Source: a virus
Virus record (IMG/VR): IMGVR_UViG_3300030419_002899
Span: 1,596 to 31,606 of that record
Reading direction: 5' to 3' (one strand)
DNA length: 30,011 nucleotides
Shown here one piece after another: positions 4,412-19,619 of this stretch. The first letter of the stretch is position 1. Every line of letters begins with the position of its first letter. The notes under the pieces are model-generated. The model worked only from the letters and a program-made list of their open reading frames with translations. It was not told where the DNA came from and did not search any database. The position numbers and the translations under genes are program-made.

Positions 4412-4627
4412 TTATTCCTTATCAAACTCCACTCTTGGAGCCCAATCGGTGATTTCCTCTATTTCAACATCAATCATTTTTCGGGCAGGGAAGTAGGTTT
4501 CATCATTTTGAAGAATAGTATCGGCGTTGTAACTTTTCTTTAATCTCTCTATGCTAAGATTAGAAGTAATTGGAATTTCTGCAAGAATATGATACCTATC
4601 TTCCCCAACCGAAACGAATTTTCTCAT
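4412..4627 (-). CDS. Small hypothetical protein coupled to Hsp20
   Basis: A 71-residue acidic protein (starts MRKFVSVGED, ends EFDKE) with alternating hydrophobic residues that suggest a small beta-containing domain. No family is recognised. Its ATG overlaps the stop codon of the upstream hsp20 gene (TAATG), a standard arrangement for translational coupling, so the two proteins are expected at related levels. The 61-nt gap that follows has no clear intrinsic terminator. Confidence 0.75.
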   Translation of the reverse strand: MRKFVSVGEDRYHILAEIPITSNLSIERLKKSYNADTILQNDETYFPARKMIDVEIEEITDWAPRVEFDKE

Positions 4628-5100
4628 TAAGAAATTTTAACGAGCTTTTTGTCAGGTTTTTTAGGTTCAATCTTCGGAATATCAATTGATAATAGTCCGT
4701 CTTTGAAATTTGCTTTGATTTTGTCCCCGTCAAGCAAATCACCTAATTCAAATTGTCTTTTGAAAGATGATTGTTTTAATTCTCTACGAATTACTTTTGC
4801 ACCTTTGACATCAAATGTTCCGTGTTTATCACCTGAAATTGTAAGTTTTCCGTCTTCAACTTCAATCTTCAAGTCTTTTTTGTCCAAACCAGGAATTTCT
4901 GCGATAACTCCAACCTTGTCTTCAAATTCATAGACATTTACTTTTGGATATGCTGTTCCTTGAAATGGCTTAACTCCAACTGTTTTTGCAACATCTGGAA
5001 ATGCTGTTTCAACAATTTGGTCAAACATTCTGTCAAATGGGGTTAAAAATTCATCCCTATCGATTGCAGGGAAGTGTGTGTTATATACTACTTTAGTCAT
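4627..5100 (-). CDS. hsp20: Small heat-shock protein, Hsp20/alpha-crystallin family
   Basis: A 157-residue protein with an alpha-crystallin domain at about residues 50-145. Family hallmarks are visible: VIAEIPGLDKKDLKIEVEDGKLTISG and, near the end, NFKDGLLSIDIPK, the A-x-x-x-(D/N)G-L-x-I-x-I-P-K signature. The N-terminal arm (PFDRMFDQ) resembles the IbpA/HspA type. Members form oligomers that hold unfolding proteins in the cytoplasm without ATP. Hsp20 genes are common in marine T4-like phages, where they are thought to help capsid or host-protein folding; that role here is inference. A good Shine-Dalgarno site (AGGAG) precedes the ATG. The downstream small gene overlaps its stop. Confidence 0.95.
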   Translation of the reverse strand: MTKVVYNTHFPAIDRDEFLTPFDRMFDQIVETAFPDVAKTVGVKPFQGTAYPKVNVYEFEDKVGVIAEIPGLDKKDLKIEVEDGKLTISGDKHGTFDVKGAKVIRRELKQSSFKRQFELGDLLDGDKIKANFKDGLLSIDIPKIEPKKPDKKLVKIS

Positions 5101-6074: not shown

Positions 6075-7241
6075 TTAGTGGTCAATATCTGAACCTTCAA
6101 TTTCGTCTTCATTGAATAAACTTTCACCTTCAGTTCTGTCATCTCTGACAAACTTCTGAACTAATTGTTTTACGAAAGTTCTTTCAGAATCTAACCCACC
6201 ATCATTAGAGTATTGTGGATAAATTGTAATCTCTGAAGCTTCTGGAAGAGAAAACCCGTCAAACAATAAACCAGCGATTTCAACCGAAGTTCTGGTAGAA
6301 ATACCACTTGTTAGTTTAGGATTTTCATTAGAGGCTTCAACTCTTGTTTGGTGTGAAATTTGAGAAACAGCATCTAACAATTCAGCATCAACATTAGGAA
6401 ACATATATTGAAGTAGTCCTAACTCTTCTGAATTGTTAAGGACATCCATTTCAATAATGGTAAATCTGTCCATTAACGCTTTATCTAAAACTCTCGTAGA
6501 AGTATATTCATTACCGATATTAGCAGTCGCGATGAAAGTAACACCTTCAGCAACATTAATAGTCGCTTGGCCGTCTTGTTCATCTAATCTCATATATCTC
6601 TGACCACTATCTAAAACGGTCATCAAAATATTCCACGCTTCAGGGTGAGCTCTCGATAACTCATCAAGAAGTATCACTGCGTTTGGTGTTTGAATTGCTT
6701 TCACGAAAAGTGATTCTGAAAAGTAAGTTCCCTTTTTCTTATCAAAGTGAACATTACCAATCAAGGTAGCTCTCGGGTCTTGAGTAGCACCTAAATTAAA
6801 GTAAAAATCTGGACGCTCTAACGCGTTTACCAGAGATTTAGCAGCTAATGTCTTACCACAACCGGCTGGACCAGTCATCATAATATTTTTACCACGAACT
6901 GCTGAACGAACTAAATATTTCCACTTCAACTCATTCATAACTAAACCAGTAGGTTTAAGAGAATAAGAAGTATGAATATAATTTAGAACTTCTTGGTGTT
7001 CTTGTGGAACTTCAACATTACCAGTATTAACTGGGATTGAGTTCACTTCAAACTCTGACATTGGAACTGACCACCAGTAATTCTTACCAGCTTTATTAAC
7101 TCTTTGTTCAAGAGCTGTTCCATTCTCATAAGCTTTCTTACGAGCACCAATAGAAATTTGAGAAGTATACTTGTTACCATTAATGTCCCAAGCATTATAT
7201 CTGTTTCCAGATTTCTCAATCTTTACGACTAAGTTATTCAT
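6075..7241 (-). CDS. MoxR/CobS-type AAA+ ATPase
   Basis: A 388-residue AAA+ ATPase of the MoxR/CobS clade. The Walker A motif GPAGCGKT is at residues 124-131, Walker B VILLDE ends at 194, the sensor-1 region ATANIGN is near 238-244, the arginine-finger region ALMDRF is at 255-260, and a sensor-2 arginine (STRTS) is near 317. The N-terminal ~90 residues form a small domain of unknown function. Such ATPases pair with VWA-domain proteins (CobS with CobT in cobaltochelatase; MoxR with VWA partners) and remodel or insert metal into target proteins. Phage CobS homologues are widespread in marine T4-like phages, but their substrate is unknown. The VWA partner is directly upstream (7320-9449). A near-consensus promoter (7280-7308) and an AAAGGA Shine-Dalgarno site precede the ATG. 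Confidence 0.93.
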   Translation of the reverse strand: MNNLVVKIEKSGNRYNAWDINGNKYTSQISIGARKKAYENGTALEQRVNKAGKNYWWSVPMSEFEVNSIPVNTGNVEVPQEHQEVLNYIHTSYSLKPTGLVMNELKWKYLVRSAVRGKNIMMTGPAGCGKTLAAKSLVNALERPDFYFNLGATQDPRATLIGNVHFDKKKGTYFSESLFVKAIQTPNAVILLDELSRAHPEAWNILMTVLDSGQRYMRLDEQDGQATINVAEGVTFIATANIGNEYTSTRVLDKALMDRFTIIEMDVLNNSEELGLLQYMFPNVDAELLDAVSQISHQTRVEASNENPKLTSGISTRTSVEIAGLLFDGFSLPEASEITIYPQYSNDGGLDSERTFVKQLVQKFVRDDRTEGESLFNEDEIEGSDIDH

Positions 7242-7279
7242 TGGTTATCCTTTCTTTATTATTATTAATCATATATCTA

Positions 7280-7308
7280 ATATTACTAATTTTTTTTGTA
7301 AAAGTCAA
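7280..7308 (-). promoter_or_regulatory. Sigma70 promoter P1 for the AAA+ gene
   Basis: On the minus strand there is TTGACT (7303-7308), exactly 17 bp, then TAATAT (7280-7285), followed by TAGATA. The predicted start leaves a leader of about 30 nt that includes AAAGGA before the ATG at 7241. The TTGACTTT -35 region recurs in P2-P4. Confidence 0.8.
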
Positions 7309-7319
7309 GTGCTTTTTCA

Positions 7320-9449
7320 TTATTTTTCCAAAAATAAATTGTTCATAGTTCTTGCTACAGCTGGAATTGATAGAATATCAATCTGTTCTGCATCAGAACC
7401 ATACATTTGTCTAAAATAGTTTATAGCAGTTGTGTCATCATCATCACCATAATATCTATCATTAATAAAATATGATAAAACTTTAATTCCCATTTTTCTC
7501 ATTTTATTAACCATATCTCTGGTGTGTTTTCTTGCTTCATCACCACTATAATAAATACTATCGTTAGAATACATTGGCATTCCGTCTGAAAAATTTAAGA
7601 AATAACTATCCATTTTATCAGTAGTCATTATCATATCTTTCATAACGGCTTCATAACATAATCCTTCAGGAGTAGTTGAACCACAATGTAAGTGTTTAAA
7701 TAATTGTCTAACTTTTGAAATCTTATCAACTCTACTATCGTAAGCGTAAAGTAGAAGTGGAACATCAGCTCCACCTGAATATCTATCAGTAGTTCCTCTT
7801 AATGAGAACACTACATCAAAGTTTGGTATCATATCAACAGCTTGAATAATAGCAATAGCACAAGTTAATGAGTTATCAAAACTCTTACCACTCATACTAC
7901 CACTTGCATCCAGAGAAATGTGTAAGAACCCGTCAGGATATTTTTCAACTTCAATGTTGTGAAAAACATTTTCATTGTTAAATCCAAGTTCCGCTACAAG
8001 TCTTTTATCAATTCTACCACTTTTTAATCTTGTGTTTTTTAATAATCTTTGTTCACCACGAATTTGTAATTTTTTACCTAACATCTTACCTAATCTCAAA
8101 CCTTCAAGAACTAATTTTTGTCTTTCAGACCAATCATATCTCCAATTTGAAATTGCATTAGGAAACAAATCACTATCAACTAATGATTTTGTAAATTTAT
8201 TTACAACAATAACTTTTGCGTCGTTTTCGGATTTAAAAGTATTAAGTGAATTTTCGTGTCTATTTTCAGTTAAGACATCTTTATATTCAGTTCCAGATTC
8301 TGAAATTGCATTTACTTGTTGAATATCTTTTTTAGAAAGTTTTCTTTTTGAAATTTTTCCGTCTAAAAACTTTTTTTGTTTTTCTAATACTTTATCAAGT
8401 CTTTTTCTAAAGTCAGATTTTTCATCATCTGTCAAACCATTATATATTTCTTGAAGTAGTTTATTTATATTTTGTGTAAATTTCTTATCACCCATATATT
8501 TTGCTTCATCAGCTACTTCAGATAATAATCTTTCATAATCTGAACTTGCTTGGTATTTATCCATAGCTTGTTTAATTCTTTCTTTTGAAAAATCACTATA
8601 ACTACTATTAGCATCATCATTAAAAATTGGTGAACTTGCTAATTCTTGATTAATTTTTTTCTTTATCTGATTATATTTATCTTGAGCATCAACATTATCT
8701 AAATTATTTATAATAACTTTAGACATATCATATGCAACTTGGAAGGCTTTTCCAGTAGAAGTTAATCTTGAAATATTTCTTAAATCTAATATATTCCAAA
8801 TATCTCTTAAACCAGGTAGAGCATCTAAATTAGTATCAGTATTTGTAAAATTGATAATTCTAAACATATAACTATCAAGATTAGTTTCTGTCATCTCATC
8901 TGATTTTAAACCTTTACCTACTTGGTTGTTATTAAAATATTTGTCATACATAGATAAATAATAACCTTTATAACCAGGAGCAGTAGTGATAATATGATTA
9001 TCAATTCTCCTGTCTTCAACATAATTCAACATATTTTTAACAAGCATTTTAGTTTCAGTTCTTGTTAAACCTTTCTCAGCTGTCGCTTCATAAAAAGTTT
9101 TTGGTATTCTTGAACCAAGTCTTTTTAGAAAATCAAAATCTGATAATAAAATATGAGAACCTTCGTGAAGTGCTAAACCAACCGAACTATCAAATAATTT
9201 ATCATCAAGTTTAGCAGATATTGTAACAACTTTCCCGTCTGTATAACTTTCACCCCTTGATGAAAATTTAACAGGAATATTTTTAGCAGTTACAATATTT
9301 ACGAAATTAGAAATCGCTCTTTGATAAGACGATAACTTAATATAGTCAACTTTTGGTTTTTGTTCTACATCATTTTCTATGAGTGATTTAGTCTTAAAAG
9401 TATCACCCAACCAAAAAGACGAAAAATTGTTCTGTTTATTTAACTTCAT
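7320..9449 (-). CDS. CobT-like VWA protein with N-terminal HExxH metallopeptidase-like domain
   Basis: A 709-residue protein with two recognisable parts. Residues ~40-150 carry HEGSH (H95, E96, H99) followed by YVEDRR (E145), the layout of a putative zinc-metallopeptidase domain found in VWA-containing proteins related to DUF2201 and CobT. The middle (about 250-400) is charged and helical. The C-terminal VWA domain (about 505-709) has a complete MIDAS set: D514-x-S516-x-S518, Thr in STTPEG (592/593), and D622 in SDGMP. The family works with MoxR/CobS AAA+ ATPases, here encoded just downstream at 6075-7241. Substrate and real protease activity are unknown. P2 lies so close to the ATG that the mRNA is probably leaderless; no Shine-Dalgarno site is present. 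Confidence 0.9.
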   Translation of the reverse strand: MKLNKQNNFSSFWLGDTFKTKSLIENDVEQKPKVDYIKLSSYQRAISNFVNIVTAKNIPVKFSSRGESYTDGKVVTISAKLDDKLFDSSVGLALHEGSHILLSDFDFLKRLGSRIPKTFYEATAEKGLTRTETKMLVKNMLNYVEDRRIDNHIITTAPGYKGYYLSMYDKYFNNNQVGKGLKSDEMTETNLDSYMFRIINFTNTDTNLDALPGLRDIWNILDLRNISRLTSTGKAFQVAYDMSKVIINNLDNVDAQDKYNQIKKKINQELASSPIFNDDANSSYSDFSKERIKQAMDKYQASSDYERLLSEVADEAKYMGDKKFTQNINKLLQEIYNGLTDDEKSDFRKRLDKVLEKQKKFLDGKISKRKLSKKDIQQVNAISESGTEYKDVLTENRHENSLNTFKSENDAKVIVVNKFTKSLVDSDLFPNAISNWRYDWSERQKLVLEGLRLGKMLGKKLQIRGEQRLLKNTRLKSGRIDKRLVAELGFNNENVFHNIEVEKYPDGFLHISLDASGSMSGKSFDNSLTCAIAIIQAVDMIPNFDVVFSLRGTTDRYSGGADVPLLLYAYDSRVDKISKVRQLFKHLHCGSTTPEGLCYEAVMKDMIMTTDKMDSYFLNFSDGMPMYSNDSIYYSGDEARKHTRDMVNKMRKMGIKVLSYFINDRYYGDDDDTTAINYFRQMYGSDAEQIDILSIPAVARTMNNLFLEK

Positions 9450-11061: not shown

Positions 11062-14000
11062 TTAATCGAACTTAATTTTACTAAAATCACTATCTTTCGT
11101 GATTTCCAGTAGTGTATCCACTGCATCTCTCATAGAGTCAACATGCGATACAATTAACGCGAATTGGAATTGTGTCTTTAAATATTGGAATAAATTATAG
11201 ACTGAATTGATATTATCACTATCCATTGTTCCCCAACCTTCGTCAATCGCTAAAAAATTACTTCTTGGTAAATTACTTACATTTATTAAACCAACTCTCA
11301 TTGCAAGAGAACTGATAAATCTTTCCATACCACTTGATAATTCTAATGGCCATTGGTTAACATCATCATATACAATATTACTATTAATATTCTTACCATC
11401 CATTTCTAATGCCATTTGGAAGTCAACTAATTGACTTAAAATATTATTTACTTCTCCTTCAATCGTAGGAATTGCTTTTTCAAGTAATTCATATGGAATA
11501 CTATCTCTTCTAACTGCATCTAAATAATAATGGTATGCTTGATTTTGTTTTTCTAATTCTGAAATCTCTTTTATCTTCTTGTTAATGTTTTTCATCTCAT
11601 TATCATTAACTTTTATATCTGAATGAACTTCTGTTATTTCATCATTTAATTCAGAAATATTATCATCTACATCAGACAATTCTAATTCTTTTTTAGATAT
11701 CTTATCTTTAATAGTATCATTAAATTTAATATTGTTTTCTTGTTCTTTATATCGTTTTATCTCACCATTTATTGATTCTATCTGATTTTCTATATTTTGT
11801 TTTCTCTCATTAATATATTGTAAACCATAGTTTAGATTATCTTCCCTTAATTTACCTTCAGATAATTGTGATTTTGCTTTATCTAATTCTTCTTTGAAAG
11901 CACGAACATTGGACATTTTTTCTATCTTTTTATCCATACTTTCTTTCTTTTCCATATATTGATGTGCTAATTCTTTGTCTTTATCAAGATTTTTTTCTGT
12001 TTCAATAGCATCTAATGTTAGTGGATTACTCATACAAAATTCACAATTTTCATCATATTTTACATCTTTTAATTTATCAATCTTATCTAATTTAACTCTA
12101 ACTTCTGCTTTTAATTTATCCAATTCTATTTCAAATAAACTTCTTTCTTTTTCAAGTTTTTCTAATTCTGCATATTGTTCTTGAATATTGTCTTTTTCAT
12201 AAATCTTTATTTTTGATTTTAAATCATCTATAACTGCTGATAAATCATATTGTTCTGTTGTAACATTACTCTCTTCATTATGTGTTGTATCAAGTAATTC
12301 TTCATTTTCAGATTTATCTTTCTCTAATACATCAATATCTCTTATTGTATCATCAACGGGTTTTAATTGTGTTGTTAAGTTAATAATTTGAGAATTTAAG
12401 TCATTGTGTATCTTTGTTTCATCATCTTTCTTACTAAGTAAATCTGTTTGTTTCACTTCTAATATTGTAGTTTCTTTCTGTAAATCTGCTAACATTTTAC
12501 CATAATCAGTTTTATTAAAATCTCTCAATAAAGTTTGTGTTTCAGATATTTTATCATTTGCTGATTGATATAAAGTATCAAAGATATTTGTTCCCATAAA
12601 TGTAGCTAATAACTCTTTTCTTTCTTTTTGTGTCTTATCTATAAAAACTGTGAAATTGTTTTGTGTTGATAATGTAGATAGAATAAAGTCGTCATATGTT
12701 CCAATTACACGATTAATATTATAATTGGTAGTTCTTCTTTGGTCTCCATTTAAACTAACGATATCCCCACCTTCATCAACCATCCAAAAGTTAACATCAA
12801 CCTTAACATGGCCATCTCTACTTCTTGTAGTTGCTTTTCTTTCAATATAATAGTCTAATCCACCAACTTCAAAATTTACTTTACAACTAAAATTCTTTTT
12901 CTTATTATTTAAAACTGAAGCGGCTCTTGTTGTTCTTGAAGTGATATCAAATAAACAAAATGATAAAGCATCTAATAAGGTTGACTTACCAGAAGCGTTT
13001 GGAGCAAACATACCAACAATCCCGTCAAGTTGTGTGAAGTCAACATAATTGTTTTCACCATAACAAAACATATTTGAAAATTCAAAGTTTTTTAATTTCC
13101 AATCTATATTTCTTTTAACTCTTGCTGGTGGTAATTCATTATTGATATCTTCATTTAGAGTTTTAATCTTTACCAACATATCGTCTGTAATAGCGTGGTT
13201 TCGTTTTAAATAATCCTCAATTAATTCATACTGATAATCTGTATCATTAACATCTCCTATTACGACTTGATGTTCTCCTCTAACTCTTTCTCTTCTATCC
13301 ACTCGTGTTATAGTAACATCTTTAATCCCATATCTATGGTGAATAACTGCTAAAGCTTTCTTTAATTGAGCTCCGTCTGTATTAGATATTCTAACTCGTA
13401 ATCTTGCTTTCTTTGGCATTCCTTTTACATCTGGAACTATCCCATTATCAATATCAATAGTATAATATCCAAAATCATTTGGTATTTCAATATATTCTGC
13501 TGTTCTTGTTGGAACTTCCCATAACAAATATCCGTGTCCTATACCTTCTCCGTGATTTTGTTGAATCAGAGAACCACAATAAGCAATAGTTTTTTCTTCG
13601 TTTAAGTATTGTCTTTTATGAATATCACCAATTAGACCCATATCATAATCGTCAAAATAATCTATTGTAACCTTACCTGGTAGTGAAAATCCTACATCAG
13701 TTTTTGACCTATCTACTGTCCCGTGATATAAAACAACTTTCGTATCAGCTTCAAAATCATTTGCTTTAATGTAGTTCTCTTCATCTTCCCATACATCCCA
13801 AACTACAAAACTAACATCTGCAATATCATAGATACCAGAGTGTTTAAGATAGTGTAGATTTGGTAAATTTAAATTATTTATTATAGGTGTTAAAACATCT
13901 AACCTATTTAAATTATTTAAATTACAATCGTGATTACCTGTGATAACTATCGTAGGGCAAATCTCTGAAAGAGATTTTAAGAAACGAGAAGTTTGGTCTA

Positions 14001-14211
14001 CGAGTTCAGGTGACATATCGGTTTTTGAGTGTGCTATATCTCCACCAATATAAATAAGAGAACTATCACGATTTTCTTTTATCTTTTCATACAACTTTTC
14101 AAATACTTGTTCGTATTCTGCGTGTCGTTTTAGATTTCTGATGTGAACATCAGATATATGATGTATGTATTTAATTTCCTTAAAAGGAATATCAATTTTT
14201 GTTCTTTTCAA
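11062..14211 (-). CDS. Fused Mre11-Rad50 (SbcD-SbcC, T4 gp47-gp46) recombination nuclease/ATPase
   Basis: A 1049-residue polypeptide joining both halves of the complex. The N-terminal nuclease (about 1-350) has the Mre11 phosphoesterase motifs DVH (21-23), GGD (56-58), GNHD (92-95), H163 and GDIH (195-198). The Rad50-like part has Walker A PNASGKST (404-411), Q-loop Q517, a long coiled coil broken by a zinc hook CEFC (723-726), signature LSSGMERF (958-965), Walker B FLAIDE (986-991), D-loop GTMD and H1023. It should process DNA ends for phage recombination-dependent replication and host DNA breakdown. In T4 the two activities are separate proteins. The start is a TTG directly after the primase stop; GGGATGG upstream may serve as Shine-Dalgarno site. 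Confidence 0.95.
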   Translation of the reverse strand: MKRTKIDIPFKEIKYIHHISDVHIRNLKRHAEYEQVFEKLYEKIKENRDSSLIYIGGDIAHSKTDMSPELVDQTSRFLKSLSEICPTIVITGNHDCNLNNLNRLDVLTPIINNLNLPNLHYLKHSGIYDIADVSFVVWDVWEDEENYIKANDFEADTKVVLYHGTVDRSKTDVGFSLPGKVTIDYFDDYDMGLIGDIHKRQYLNEEKTIAYCGSLIQQNHGEGIGHGYLLWEVPTRTAEYIEIPNDFGYYTIDIDNGIVPDVKGMPKKARLRVRISNTDGAQLKKALAVIHHRYGIKDVTITRVDRRERVRGEHQVVIGDVNDTDYQYELIEDYLKRNHAITDDMLVKIKTLNEDINNELPPARVKRNIDWKLKNFEFSNMFCYGENNYVDFTQLDGIVGMFAPNASGKSTLLDALSFCLFDITSRTTRAASVLNNKKKNFSCKVNFEVGGLDYYIERKATTRSRDGHVKVDVNFWMVDEGGDIVSLNGDQRRTTNYNINRVIGTYDDFILSTLSTQNNFTVFIDKTQKERKELLATFMGTNIFDTLYQSANDKISETQTLLRDFNKTDYGKMLADLQKETTILEVKQTDLLSKKDDETKIHNDLNSQIINLTTQLKPVDDTIRDIDVLEKDKSENEELLDTTHNEESNVTTEQYDLSAVIDDLKSKIKIYEKDNIQEQYAELEKLEKERSLFEIELDKLKAEVRVKLDKIDKLKDVKYDENCEFCMSNPLTLDAIETEKNLDKDKELAHQYMEKKESMDKKIEKMSNVRAFKEELDKAKSQLSEGKLREDNLNYGLQYINERKQNIENQIESINGEIKRYKEQENNIKFNDTIKDKISKKELELSDVDDNISELNDEITEVHSDIKVNDNEMKNINKKIKEISELEKQNQAYHYYLDAVRRDSIPYELLEKAIPTIEGEVNNILSQLVDFQMALEMDGKNINSNIVYDDVNQWPLELSSGMERFISSLAMRVGLINVSNLPRSNFLAIDEGWGTMDSDNINSVYNLFQYLKTQFQFALIVSHVDSMRDAVDTLLEITKDSDFSKIKFD

Positions 14212-15504: not shown

Positions 15505-18500
15505 TTACTTGTATTTTTTAATGTGTTTATTTACTTCTCTTCTTGCCCATTTTTCAGCTGCTATTTCATATGGATTGTCGTCGTGGAAATCTCCACCTTT
15601 TTGTATAGCTATCTCTCCTGCTGTAGTATACATTTTTACGAATTTCTTTTTACCATATCTTTTACTATCCATAGCGTGATAAATTTCGTGTAAAACTGTA
15701 ATTAAAAAATCTCTCATACTTGAATAAAATGGTCTCAATACTATAACATTTCTATCAAAATCATAATCAGCTTTTGTTGTTCCTGATTTAAATTCTAATT
15801 TTGAATGAACTCTATATTTTTTTATCAATTCTTTTGCTATTTGACGAAAATCCACTCTTTCTAATACTAATTTAAAATTTTCGTTTGTCATCTTCTTTAA
15901 TAATCTTTGTTTTCTTACCCAAGATAATCCGATTTTATTTTTAATTGGTCTTTTGACAAATTTACTGATACCTCTTTTTACCAACATATTAAATCTTCTT
16001 TGTGCACTTTCTTCATCTAAATCTTTATTATTGTCTATAATCAAAAAGTTTCCACCAAATAGTCCTTGAAGTCCACCAATATTCTTTGTAACTGCTCTGT
16101 GTGAATCTCTAACTATTTTTTCAGGTAAAACTCTATCTCTGTTTTCATTTCTTTTTAGTGCTACTTCTAAAGAAGTATTAATAAAAATCATATAAGTATC
16201 ATATCCTTTTTTCTCTACTTCTTTCTTTTGTTGTCTTATCTCTTTAAAGTCATCACCAGTTCCGTCAATAATCATACCTAAACGACCATCCATATATTGT
16301 TTTTTTCTAACACCAGTTAATTCTTTAGCGAAAGTTCTTAAACCACTATAATCTGAATAACTTGGGTCTGTTAATTGTCTAAAGAGTTCGTCTGGTAGTA
16401 AATCTAAATTAGTTCCAAAACCATATTTGTTTAATAAGAATTTTAATTCTTTATCTGAATTTACCATTTTTAAACCAGATTGTGAAACATTAACTCTATC
16501 AGGTATTCCGAATAATCCTCTTGCTACCCAAGTTTTTCCACTACCAGGCCCACCTGCTAAAAATACCGCTTTTAGAATTCCAGGGTCATTAACTCCTTCT
16601 ACAACTACATCTGCGTCTTTAATAGCACTTTTTTTAGGTTTCTCATCCGTTGTCACAAATGTATCATATTTGTCGTGCGGTGAGTGTTCGTATTGACGAA
16701 CTTTCAATTTTATTTTTGGTTTGTGATTACCTGGTAATCTGTTTTCTACACCTACAAATTTTACTGCTCCAGGTATTAGATATAAAGTCATTTCGTTCTT
16801 ATTTAAATTCATTAGAATTTGACTTGAAGTCCATAATTTGTTTTGAGCTCTAACTAAATCATATTTAGGCCCCATATCTTGTGTGTGATTGTAAAATTGT
16901 GGAAATATTTCTTTATATTTATTTGTTTTGTTTAACAAATTTAATGCGTTTTTCATTCGTAGTTCAGACGAAACTCTGTCTTCACCTCTTGTATATCCTT
17001 GTTCTGGGTGTTCAATCCCGTGATTAGAACGAACCAATGGTGATTTACTAATATCGTGGATTTTTACTTTTGGTTTTGTTCTACTTGTATTTTCAATAGC
17101 AACTAATTTTTCTCCATCACTTACAAGTGTATGTCCTTTAACACCAGTATCAAACCCAACCAATGATTCTACAACTTCTTTCAATGTGTCTTTTGATAAT
17201 GCGTGTCTAATACGAATTCCGTCTTTGGAAGGAGCTTTCTTTTTCTTTGATTTATCAAAGTCTTTTTCATCTCTTTTTACGAATAGTGCTGAATTAACCA
17301 ATCCAATACCTTTAGAGTTCATACCTTCAGACCAATCTGTATCTTGGTCAACCATATAACAAAGTTCTACACCATTACCACTCATCTCTCTAACGACTTT
17401 TAGTTCTGGTGTATAGTTTCTATCACGATTTTTTCCTAATACAATATCATCACCACATTTTTTTGAGAATGCTACACATTCACTTACTTGTTTTTTTGGT
17501 AATCTAAATTTTAAAGCTGGTTTACCATTGAATAGTAAATCTCCTTTTTCGTTCCATTTTATAGTTTTTATTTTTACTTTTTTATTTTTGAACCTACCCA
17601 TTTTTACGGTATCACCGACTTTTATTGGAATTTTAATGTCTTCTTTTAGAACACCTTCCATTGTCATTATCTTATCATAAGCATCGTCTTTCATTTTAGA
17701 AATCATTGCGATAAATGGTGACCTACGAAGTGCTTTGAATGCGAGATTTTCAACTGAAAACTCACCACCTCTTTCTAATCCTGATTGTCTCATTCTTTTT
17801 AATTTAGTTTTTATACTTTCAATCATTTGGATTACTTTTTTATACCTACCAAGACTCATTAGTTCTTTCAGAGTATTAATAGAACCTACATATCCTTCAG
17901 CCTTTGAACGAATATCGTCAAAGTCTATTTTTAATTCTTTCTTTTTTGGAATAACTAACCATTTGTTGTGTAATATTGAATATAACCCAGAAGCTATGTG
18001 AGTATCACCTATATCTTCTACATAAACTTCTACTGGAAAATCATAAATTGTAATATCGTGTTTGTCGTTCCATATAGTTTTTTTAGCTAACATATAATTT
18101 TTTACAAAATCTTTATCGTCATCTATTTCACTAAAATCTAATCGTAGATGTAAATCTACATCTGAAAATTTTGACCAATTGTAATTTGAAATACTACCTG
18201 TTAAAGTTATATCGTGTAGTTTTACATTTGGTTCTAATTCTAATTCTTTAAAAAAGTCATTACCAATTTTTCTTAATTTTTTTAGGATTTCTACTTTTAA
18301 CTTTCCGTTTTCCCATATTTTAGGATTTAGGTTGTCTTGGATAGTAAAACTTTTAATGACATCTGGTGATATGTCTTCTTTTACTTTCTTTCTTGATTTT
18401 GGATTTAATGGGCCTTCTAAATATCTTCTTGATATATCACTATATTTTTTATTTGATTCTTTAACTATTGTTTCTGTTAAATCTTCTGGTTCTTGTAAAG

Positions 18501-19464
18501 TAATAATTTTTATTGTTCTACCATTTGACATTTTTTTAGTTTCTATTGAAACAACTTTTGCTTTTGATTTAGAACTACGAATAATTTCTTTTTCACGGTC
18601 TATTTCACTTGCCTCATCTCCGTCAACATATAAACCTCTTATTTGTCCTTTTGAGTTTGGTATTATTCTAAATAGGATTGATGTTTTATTTTTAGCGTCT
18701 TCTTTAGGTTCATCAGCATCAACTCTTGCAAAATGTCTTGCTTCTTTATTACTTATACTAAATCCACTTGAACCGTGTCCTGATTCATCTGGTATTTCAA
18801 CCATTTCTCCAATTTCAAATTCACTTAATATTAAGTCTGCTACATCATTGTCAACATCTATTCCTCTTTCTATTGGTTTATCAACCTTAGTAACAGTCTT
18901 ATGAGCTAAATTACTCATCCTTTCATTTCTATCTCGGATTTCTTGTTCTGTTATGTCTCCGTCTTCAATAGCATTTTGAATAGCTTCAAATCCACCATAT
19001 CTTTTCCAACTTTTAATATCTGTTTCTAATTGTTTTTGTTCTTTTTTTGATAATTTCTTTTTTTGTTCTTGATATTGATTTTCCACATCTTGTGTAATTT
19101 TCTCAATATCGTGACCTTCATCTCCTTTGTAATAAAAATCATCAGAAAAATGTTTATCATCTTTTTTATTTCTCATAACATCAACACCATTTTTCATATT
19201 TGGTTTTCTATCTGGTCTTGCTAATGCTTTTTCTCTCTTTTTTCTTCCTTTTTCTTTAGCCTTTGCAATATCTTCTGGTGAAAATTTCGGTGTTTTAAAT
19301 TTAAATTTAGGAACTTTAATAAATAAATTTGATTTTTTTGTTTTTTGTTTCTTTTTAATTGGCGTAGAACGACCAGCTTTAATTGCTTTATCTCTTGCTT
19401 CTTTAGACTGGTATGTTACAACTCTACCAGTTTTTTTTGATATTGCTTTAAAAACTTTAGACAT
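15505..19464 (-). CDS. Giant polyvalent protein: ADP-ribosyltransferase, nucleotidyltransferase, Ntn hydrolase, P-loop kinase and zincin domains
   Basis: A 1319-residue protein with five enzyme signatures in order. (1) R-S-E-type ADP-ribosyltransferase, ~190-310: IERG (R200), FSIS (235-238), EKE (291-293). (2) Nucleotidyltransferase, ~385-500: GS (423-424), DVD (435-437) and a third acid E479. (3) Ntn hydrolase resembling the choloylglycine hydrolase/C45 group, ~663-900: C663 followed by GKNRDRN. (4) Zeta-toxin/polynucleotide-kinase-like P-loop, ~960-1150: GGPGSGKT (971-978), IIDGTGDD. (5) Metallopeptidase, ~1200-1319: HEIYH (1259-1263) with E1300/E1304. The N-terminus is Lys-rich. The layout matches the polyvalent proteins of phages and conjugative elements, thought to be injected with DNA to modify host proteins. 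Position next to virion genes supports packaging (inference). AGGAG precedes the ATG. Confidence 0.88.
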   Translation of the reverse strand: MSKVFKAISKKTGRVVTYQSKEARDKAIKAGRSTPIKKKQKTKKSNLFIKVPKFKFKTPKFSPEDIAKAKEKGRKKREKALARPDRKPNMKNGVDVMRNKKDDKHFSDDFYYKGDEGHDIEKITQDVENQYQEQKKKLSKKEQKQLETDIKSWKRYGGFEAIQNAIEDGDITEQEIRDRNERMSNLAHKTVTKVDKPIERGIDVDNDVADLILSEFEIGEMVEIPDESGHGSSGFSISNKEARHFARVDADEPKEDAKNKTSILFRIIPNSKGQIRGLYVDGDEASEIDREKEIIRSSKSKAKVVSIETKKMSNGRTIKIITLQEPEDLTETIVKESNKKYSDISRRYLEGPLNPKSRKKVKEDISPDVIKSFTIQDNLNPKIWENGKLKVEILKKLRKIGNDFFKELELEPNVKLHDITLTGSISNYNWSKFSDVDLHLRLDFSEIDDDKDFVKNYMLAKKTIWNDKHDITIYDFPVEVYVEDIGDTHIASGLYSILHNKWLVIPKKKELKIDFDDIRSKAEGYVGSINTLKELMSLGRYKKVIQMIESIKTKLKRMRQSGLERGGEFSVENLAFKALRRSPFIAMISKMKDDAYDKIMTMEGVLKEDIKIPIKVGDTVKMGRFKNKKVKIKTIKWNEKGDLLFNGKPALKFRLPKKQVSECVAFSKKCGDDIVLGKNRDRNYTPELKVVREMSGNGVELCYMVDQDTDWSEGMNSKGIGLVNSALFVKRDEKDFDKSKKKKAPSKDGIRIRHALSKDTLKEVVESLVGFDTGVKGHTLVSDGEKLVAIENTSRTKPKVKIHDISKSPLVRSNHGIEHPEQGYTRGEDRVSSELRMKNALNLLNKTNKYKEIFPQFYNHTQDMGPKYDLVRAQNKLWTSSQILMNLNKNEMTLYLIPGAVKFVGVENRLPGNHKPKIKLKVRQYEHSPHDKYDTFVTTDEKPKKSAIKDADVVVEGVNDPGILKAVFLAGGPGSGKTWVARGLFGIPDRVNVSQSGLKMVNSDKELKFLLNKYGFGTNLDLLPDELFRQLTDPSYSDYSGLRTFAKELTGVRKKQYMDGRLGMIIDGTGDDFKEIRQQKKEVEKKGYDTYMIFINTSLEVALKRNENRDRVLPEKIVRDSHRAVTKNIGGLQGLFGGNFLIIDNNKDLDEESAQRRFNMLVKRGISKFVKRPIKNKIGLSWVRKQRLLKKMTNENFKLVLERVDFRQIAKELIKKYRVHSKLEFKSGTTKADYDFDRNVIVLRPFYSSMRDFLITVLHEIYHAMDSKRYGKKKFVKMYTTAGEIAIQKGGDFHDDNPYEIAAEKWARREVNKHIKKYK

Positions 19465-19619
19465 TAATATCTCCTACCCATTTGTTTAGGATTTATTCCT
19501 TGTTCTCTTAATTTAGCTTTATATTTTTTGACTTGGTTGGCAGTTCTACCTTGACGAGCATACAATGCGTTTAATCTTCTCTTTTTATCTTTTCTATCTT
19601 TTGCAGCTCTGTTTGGCAT
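19464..19619 (-). CDS. Small, very basic protein, 51 residues
   Basis: The frame encodes a Lys/Arg-rich protein (starts MPNRAAKDRKDKKRR, ends NPKQMGRRY) with a GRTANQVKKYKAKLREQG segment likely to form a helix. Similar small basic proteins of unknown role occur in myoviruses; it may bind DNA or RNA. A good Shine-Dalgarno site (GAGGAG, 7 nt before the ATG) supports translation. Its TAA overlaps the ATG of the polyvalent protein gene (TAATG), so the two are probably coupled and needed together. Confidence 0.8.
   Translation of the reverse strand: MPNRAAKDRKDKKRRLNALYARQGRTANQVKKYKAKLREQGINPKQMGRRY

Follow-up and report, generated by a model that had tools for sequence, protein, structure and literature searches.

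An uninterrupted open reading frame (ORF) of 1319 amino acids, P0001 (minus strand, 19464-15505, ATG at 19464), was analysed in a window of 30,011 nucleotides taken from a 33,365-base IMG/VR virus record of a marine phage (IMGVR_UViG_3300030419_002899); its open frame and its relatives support its reading as one polyprotein. From the N-terminus, it carries an ADP-ribosyltransferase (ART), a Pol-beta-type nucleotidyltransferase (NTase), an N-terminal nucleophile (Ntn) hydrolase, a P-loop kinase and a zinc metallopeptidase (zincin). Judging from sequence comparisons, the product is quite probably a member of a widespread group of head-packaged phage effectors: a polyprotein of separable enzyme modules that would be cut by the prohead protease during head maturation, with the Ntn hydrolase being activated thereby. 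The five enzymes would probably be a precursor for separation rather than one working five-headed protein. The modules, their shuffling among related phages, the motif at their boundaries, and the head protease and targeting peptides encoded by relatives are established by sequence and fold.

The unexpected feature lies at the residues where modules begin. Relatives were anchored at the start of each module, the residues just before it were read, and the upstream contexts were clustered by sequence. The sequence [I/L/V/M]-x-E immediately precedes the first Cys of the Ntn module in 122/122 ORFs, comprising 31/31 distinct upstream contexts, and [ILVFM]-x-E immediately precedes the first Gly of the kinase in 116/116 ORFs (26/26 contexts). 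This boundary motif also stands directly before the zincin in six of seven contexts and is frequent, if not universal, before the NTase, while elsewhere in the same upstream stretches it is found at 1.9-2.5% of positions, the background for the Ntn module being 2.1%. P1 is always Glu and P3 alternates among I, L, V and M, whereas P2 and P4 vary freely, showing that the contexts have had time enough to diverge. In the polyprotein, five head-protease sites are predicted: VKE363^D364 (18373..18384), which is also the break point in a relative lacking the ART; LKE608^D609 (17638..17649); QVSE662^C663 (17476..17490), where a cut would expose the Ntn nucleophile; VVVE956^G957 (16594..16608); and LVLE1202^R1203 (15856..15870), all on the minus strand. 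The earlier note on this DNA had argued that C663 implies a cut after E662, and the invariance of this Glu among the 122 relatives supports the argument well. Standalone Ntn genes begin MINE^C, MAKLLNE^C, MAKILQE^C or MTSANNNEFLNE^C and never Met-Cys, which is telling because a Met-Cys start alone could already give an N-terminal Cys.

The Ntn module itself (residues 663-948; 16621..17478, minus strand) was delimited by alignment, an AlphaFold model and fold matches. Its motifs, C663 and N679-R680-D681, are kept in relatives. The model (predicted local distance difference test score 72, predicted template modelling score 0.78) has the alpha-beta-beta-alpha arrangement expected of an Ntn fold, and its predicted nucleophile lies where the first strand begins. 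It matches known structures with a Foldseek E of 2.3e-7 and a VIA Z of 17.5 to NAAA, and bile salt hydrolases, acid ceramidase and isopenicillin N acyltransferase (IAT) are also matched. Model residue 1 (C663) aligns with the first residue of the mature chain, the nucleophile Cys, of NAAA, acid ceramidase, IAT and penicillin V acylase. Matches to the AAT family (PF03417) stay below its gathering score, the best (22.2 bits against 23.2) being that of the MA9V-2 protein, and the window protein gives no match. No relative of the module was found in the 84,980 bacterial and archaeal species genomes scanned. The module probably has amidase or acyltransferase activity.

The boundary motif resembles the cleavage motif of the phage T4 prohead protease gp21, which cleaves after L/I-x-E (PMC9026906). 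Peptidase_S77, the gp21 family, was found in 30 of the 46 related records. In the T4 capsid-targeting sequence, targeting depends on residues 4 and 7 and processing on residues 8 and 10 (PMC9026906). Leaders with this spacing (consensus MIKLKDLLxE) begin 64 of the 1036 genes in related loci, compared with 4.2 +/- 1.8 in shuffles, although some of the 64 genes are homologous and hence do not represent 64 independent events. For example, standalone kinases begin MIKLKDLLSE^G, with the spacing of the T4 sequence. In the 266-kb phage L307 (5261-11787), the interval from the head-maturation protease to a gp22-like gene, after which comes the major head protein, contains an Ntn gene (MAKLLNE^C). In L308 (13010-16159) and L309 (5013-6176), the corresponding interval is occupied by rows of small genes with MIKLKxxxxE leaders, and the major head protein again comes after the gp22-like gene; the small genes likely encode a set of unstudied internal head proteins. 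It should be noted that the gp22-like (scaffold-like) call is based on position and on sequence resemblance among these three loci, with no PHROG match. In the MA9V phages, the genes adjoining the Ntn gene begin MSNYINE^A and MKGFFINE^A. Two further observations concern these loci. The Ntn gene of L307 adjoins two paralogues that begin MK[KT]QNSYLIMEGSANPKN, and in Chryseobacterium phages MA9V-2 and MA9V-1 (L196 and L197) the open frame with the S77 match is well over 1000 amino acids long, compared with proteases of about 200 amino acids in the other phages.

We propose that the precursor would be taken into the prohead core along with a T4-type scaffold. In the maturing head, a gp21-type (Peptidase S77) prohead protease would cut after [I/L/V/M/F]-x-E, as the invariant motif suggests, at E363, E608, E662, E956 and E1202. 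The cut after E662 would make C663 N-terminal and switch on the Ntn hydrolase, so that an amidase or acyltransferase zymogen would be activated by capsid maturation, and the separated enzymes would then be ejected with the DNA. Host proteins, tRNAs or nucleotides would be the probable targets of modification by the ART, NTase and kinase. Packaging and injection of the polyprotein are plausible because T4-like capsid-targeting peptides occur on relatives of its modules and because a head-gene cluster includes one Ntn gene. Given the latter position, in L307, the Ntn hydrolase may also act within the head, for instance by trimming core peptides.

Several observations weigh against this scenario. 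The upstream contexts are not fully independent of each other. Val occupies P3 in four of the five polyprotein sites, T4 preferring Leu or Ile, and the strict L/I-x-E form is found at one polyprotein site only; the form with any hydrophobic P3 holds in every Ntn and kinase context. The polyprotein (start MSKVFKAISKKTG) has no obvious capsid-targeting leader of the kind that marks a T4-type cargo and that many relatives have, and none is present on its closest relatives (L001 and L002). A leader lost by frameshift was looked for upstream of the polyprotein, where only a separate ORF of 51 amino acids was found. The 33-kb polyprotein contig is a fragment in which no head genes, and no S77 protease of its own, were seen, and Peptidase_S77 was not found in the 41-kb relative contig G001. 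The polyprotein contig was assigned to an S77-bearing lineage because it shares SbcCD and large tail-region proteins with S77-bearing contigs, the SbcCD identity being 54-58% to the nearer and 43% to the farther ones.

Three other explanations of the boundary motif were weighed. According to the first, the Ntn hydrolase cleaves itself, as do NAAA, acid ceramidase, IAT and penicillin acylases, making xE a self-cleavage site and the head protease irrelevant at C663. The nearest folds, those of NAAA, acid ceramidase and IAT, do belong to self-processing enzymes, and short leaders lost through self-cleavage are known in the Ntn superfamily, for example in penicillin V acylase. However, the same motif recurs before the kinase in every context and before the zincin in all but one, including standalone genes without an Ntn domain, and it also marks the start of many small head-cluster proteins, leaving self-cleavage an unlikely explanation. 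A second possibility is cleavage of the polyprotein by its C-terminal zincin, either within the head or once injected. An MPTase-PolyVal-type zincin does lie on the same chain, and such processing has been proposed for polyvalent proteins (Iyer et al. 2017, PMC5512222). The earlier note had likewise suggested cutting by the protein's own protease. This is less likely because the [ILVMF]-x-E site also precedes modules in genes without a zincin and without an Ntn domain, and because it resembles the motif of a head-maturation protease, with gp21-like specificity. The site is retained even where no zincin lies in cis, as in standalone Ntn and kinase genes and in several polyproteins, and the zincin module itself has a site in front; we therefore hold cutting by the zincin to be very improbable. 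Finally, it is equally hard to credit that no processing occurs and that hydrophobic-x-E serves as a structural cap or was inherited as a recombination boundary in a fused multi-enzyme that works whole: the missing targeting leader would fit, but structure hardly explains why one three-residue pattern should precede unrelated folds and also stand at the N-termini of many small proteins, standalone Ntn genes retain a leader of 4-12 amino acids ending in xE^C, and Ntn enzymes require a free N-terminal nucleophile.

The five-enzyme reading was first made in the earlier note from catalytic motifs, all of which are present in the minus-strand ORF and kept in relatives. It is now supported for every module, by Pfam (kinase), by Pfam matches of relatives (NTase and zincin) or by AlphaFold models and Foldseek matches (ART and Ntn). 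Nothing useful was returned by PDB profiles for the Ntn, NTase and zincin modules or by Pfam and PDB profiles for the ART, and folds were used for the ART and Ntn modules for this reason. Chance co-occurrence of the motifs was considered and rejected, since the folds and family matches argue against it. With at least two domains of disparate biochemical activity in one phage polypeptide, P0001 has the domain content of a polyvalent protein.

The ART module (residues 150-362; 18379..19017, minus strand) was identified by alignment, an AlphaFold model and fold matches. It retains R200, GFS at 234-236 and E291/E293, which are kept in relatives, and its model matches C3larvin, ExoS, SpvB and others with a Foldseek probability of 1.00 (best VIA Z 9.3). 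The ART fold together with the Arg, Ser-containing and ExE motifs places it in the R-S-E class. The NTase module (residues 364-605; 17650..18375, minus strand) matches phrog_36119 (E 7e-44) and carries G423-S424, D435/D437 and E479, which are kept in relatives. NTP_transf_2 matches 19 of the 21 members of the family (best E 2.2e-5), and the window copy itself matches only MTPAP-like, at E 0.0013 and below the cut-off. The structure matches of the combined ART and NTase model were filled by ARTs, and hence the NTase assignment rests on the Pfam matches of its relatives. The P-loop kinase (Zeta toxin/AAA_33; residues 957-1192; 15889..16596, minus strand), assigned by Pfam, scores 34.1 bits to Zeta_toxin against a Pfam cut-off of 22.3 and contains the P-loop GGPGSGKT. 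For the MPTase-PolyVal-type zincin (residues 1203-1319; 15508..15858, minus strand), assigned by alignment and by Pfam in relatives, HEIYH (1259-1263) is invariant among relatives. MPTase-PolyVal (PF18818) matches 13 of the 14 members (best E 5.1e-5), the window copy scoring 16.7 bits against a cut-off of 27.5. A small module between the NTase and the Ntn hydrolase (residues 609-660, IKVGDTVKMGRFKNKK...; 17485..17640, minus strand) recurs at the start of or inside many related polyproteins and also stands alone in short ORFs; it is possibly SH3/KOW-like.

Each module was found alone or in other orders among relatives. Relatives of the NTase are encoded by Lak phages, Maribacter phages and cyanophages, standalone Ntn genes by Chryseobacterium phages, and relatives of the kinase by pelagiphage HTVC008M, and in one relative (L004) the ART is joined directly to the Ntn hydrolase. 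The fusion from NTase to zincin is also present in contigs L001 and L002 (83% identity), and misassembly of the five-module ORF was rejected on the basis of these two other contigs. The nearest relative, G001 (41 kb), is 83% identical over residues 361-1319 and lacks the ART module, the join lying at VKE^D; its contig is syntenic with the window from the baseplate-like genes to the window end. Elsewhere, a polyprotein of 1513 amino acids in L233 (1912-6453) has the kinase, the small module, the Ntn hydrolase and a FGGRFQPFHSGH segment resembling a nucleotidylyltransferase, and its joints carry xE sites.

Several known systems resemble parts of this arrangement. The Cys Ntn hydrolases (AAT/IAT PF03417, choloylglycine hydrolases, NAAA and acid ceramidase) share the predicted fold and the position of the nucleophile Cys, and relatives of the window module give weak PF03417 matches. 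Known members are self-processed, or begin Met-Cys, or follow a signal peptide, whereas here a likely trans-protease site lies directly before the Cys. The polyvalent proteins of phages and conjugative elements likewise combine several unrelated enzyme domains, including ART, Pol-beta NTase and zincin, in one polypeptide for which injection was proposed; however, processing there was ascribed to zincins (PMC5512222), whereas here a head-protease-like site lies at each module start, one of them exactly at the predicted catalytic N-terminal Cys. That description of polyvalent proteins does not mention Ntn hydrolases, and 'prohead' occurs in a reference only (Iyer et al. 2017, PMC5512222). The gp21-processed T4 proteins IPI-III and Alt (PMC9026906, PMC9958956) share with the relatives the leader pattern (phi-4, phi-7, phi-8, E-10), [L/I]-x-E, an S77 protease and, in Alt, an ART cargo. 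In contrast, T4 cargoes lose short terminal peptides, whereas here strung enzymes would be separated and a zymogen activation is predicted, and the window protein lacks the leader. In SPN3US and phiKZ, many head cargoes (ejection and inner-body proteins) are also cut by the prohead protease after a short Glu-ending motif (A-x-E in SPN3US), but with another P3 residue and in other protein families, and Ntn activation is not reported (PMC10052503). The cleavages recorded there for gp245, self-cleavage aside, all give N-terminal propeptides (PMC10052503). An overview of jumbo phages handles S77 proteases and polyvalent proteins separately. No literature joining 'prohead protease' with 'N-terminal nucleophile' was found in a search that covered subscription papers thinly, and none joining 'Ntn hydrolase' with 'bacteriophage', 'virion' and 'prohead' together. 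The proposed activation of an Ntn enzyme in a polyprotein by a head protease is a probable novelty.

A series of tail- or baseplate-like genes comes before the polyprotein gene, and genes for a RusA-like resolvase, a primase and a fused SbcD-SbcC come after it. The virion-like genes upstream of it have no PHROG match. Flavobacterium phages and Microcystis phage Mel-JY01 encode distant matches to the largest of them, and in Mel-JY01 primase and SbcCD-type genes likewise lie downstream. Directly upstream of the polyprotein, the basic ORF of 51 amino acids (19464..19619, minus strand) overlaps its ATG with the stop codon (TAATG), perhaps reflecting translational coupling. The SbcD-type phosphoesterase and SbcC-type ATPase form one fusion of 1049 amino acids (11062-14211 of the window), conserved in related contigs and in Mel-JY01. 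In addition, a MoxR-type AAA ATPase adjoins a CobT/VWA-like protein of 709 amino acids (6075-9449), and a small heat-shock protein gene is located at 4627-5100.

We consider it rather likely that the prohead protease switches on an Ntn zymogen in the virion by a cut before its nucleophile, and that T4-like marine phages shuffle effector cassettes between head-protease sites, so that the enzymes would be delivered separated from one gene. The model predicts an N-terminal Cys at a defined residue. If the model is true, enzyme activation would be tied to virion assembly, and it would be explained how large multidomain phage effectors can reach the host as separate enzymes. The model would also provide a sequence rule, [ILVM]-x-E where modules begin and MIKLKDLLxE leaders, with which head-packaged effectors could be found in uncultured T4-like phages.

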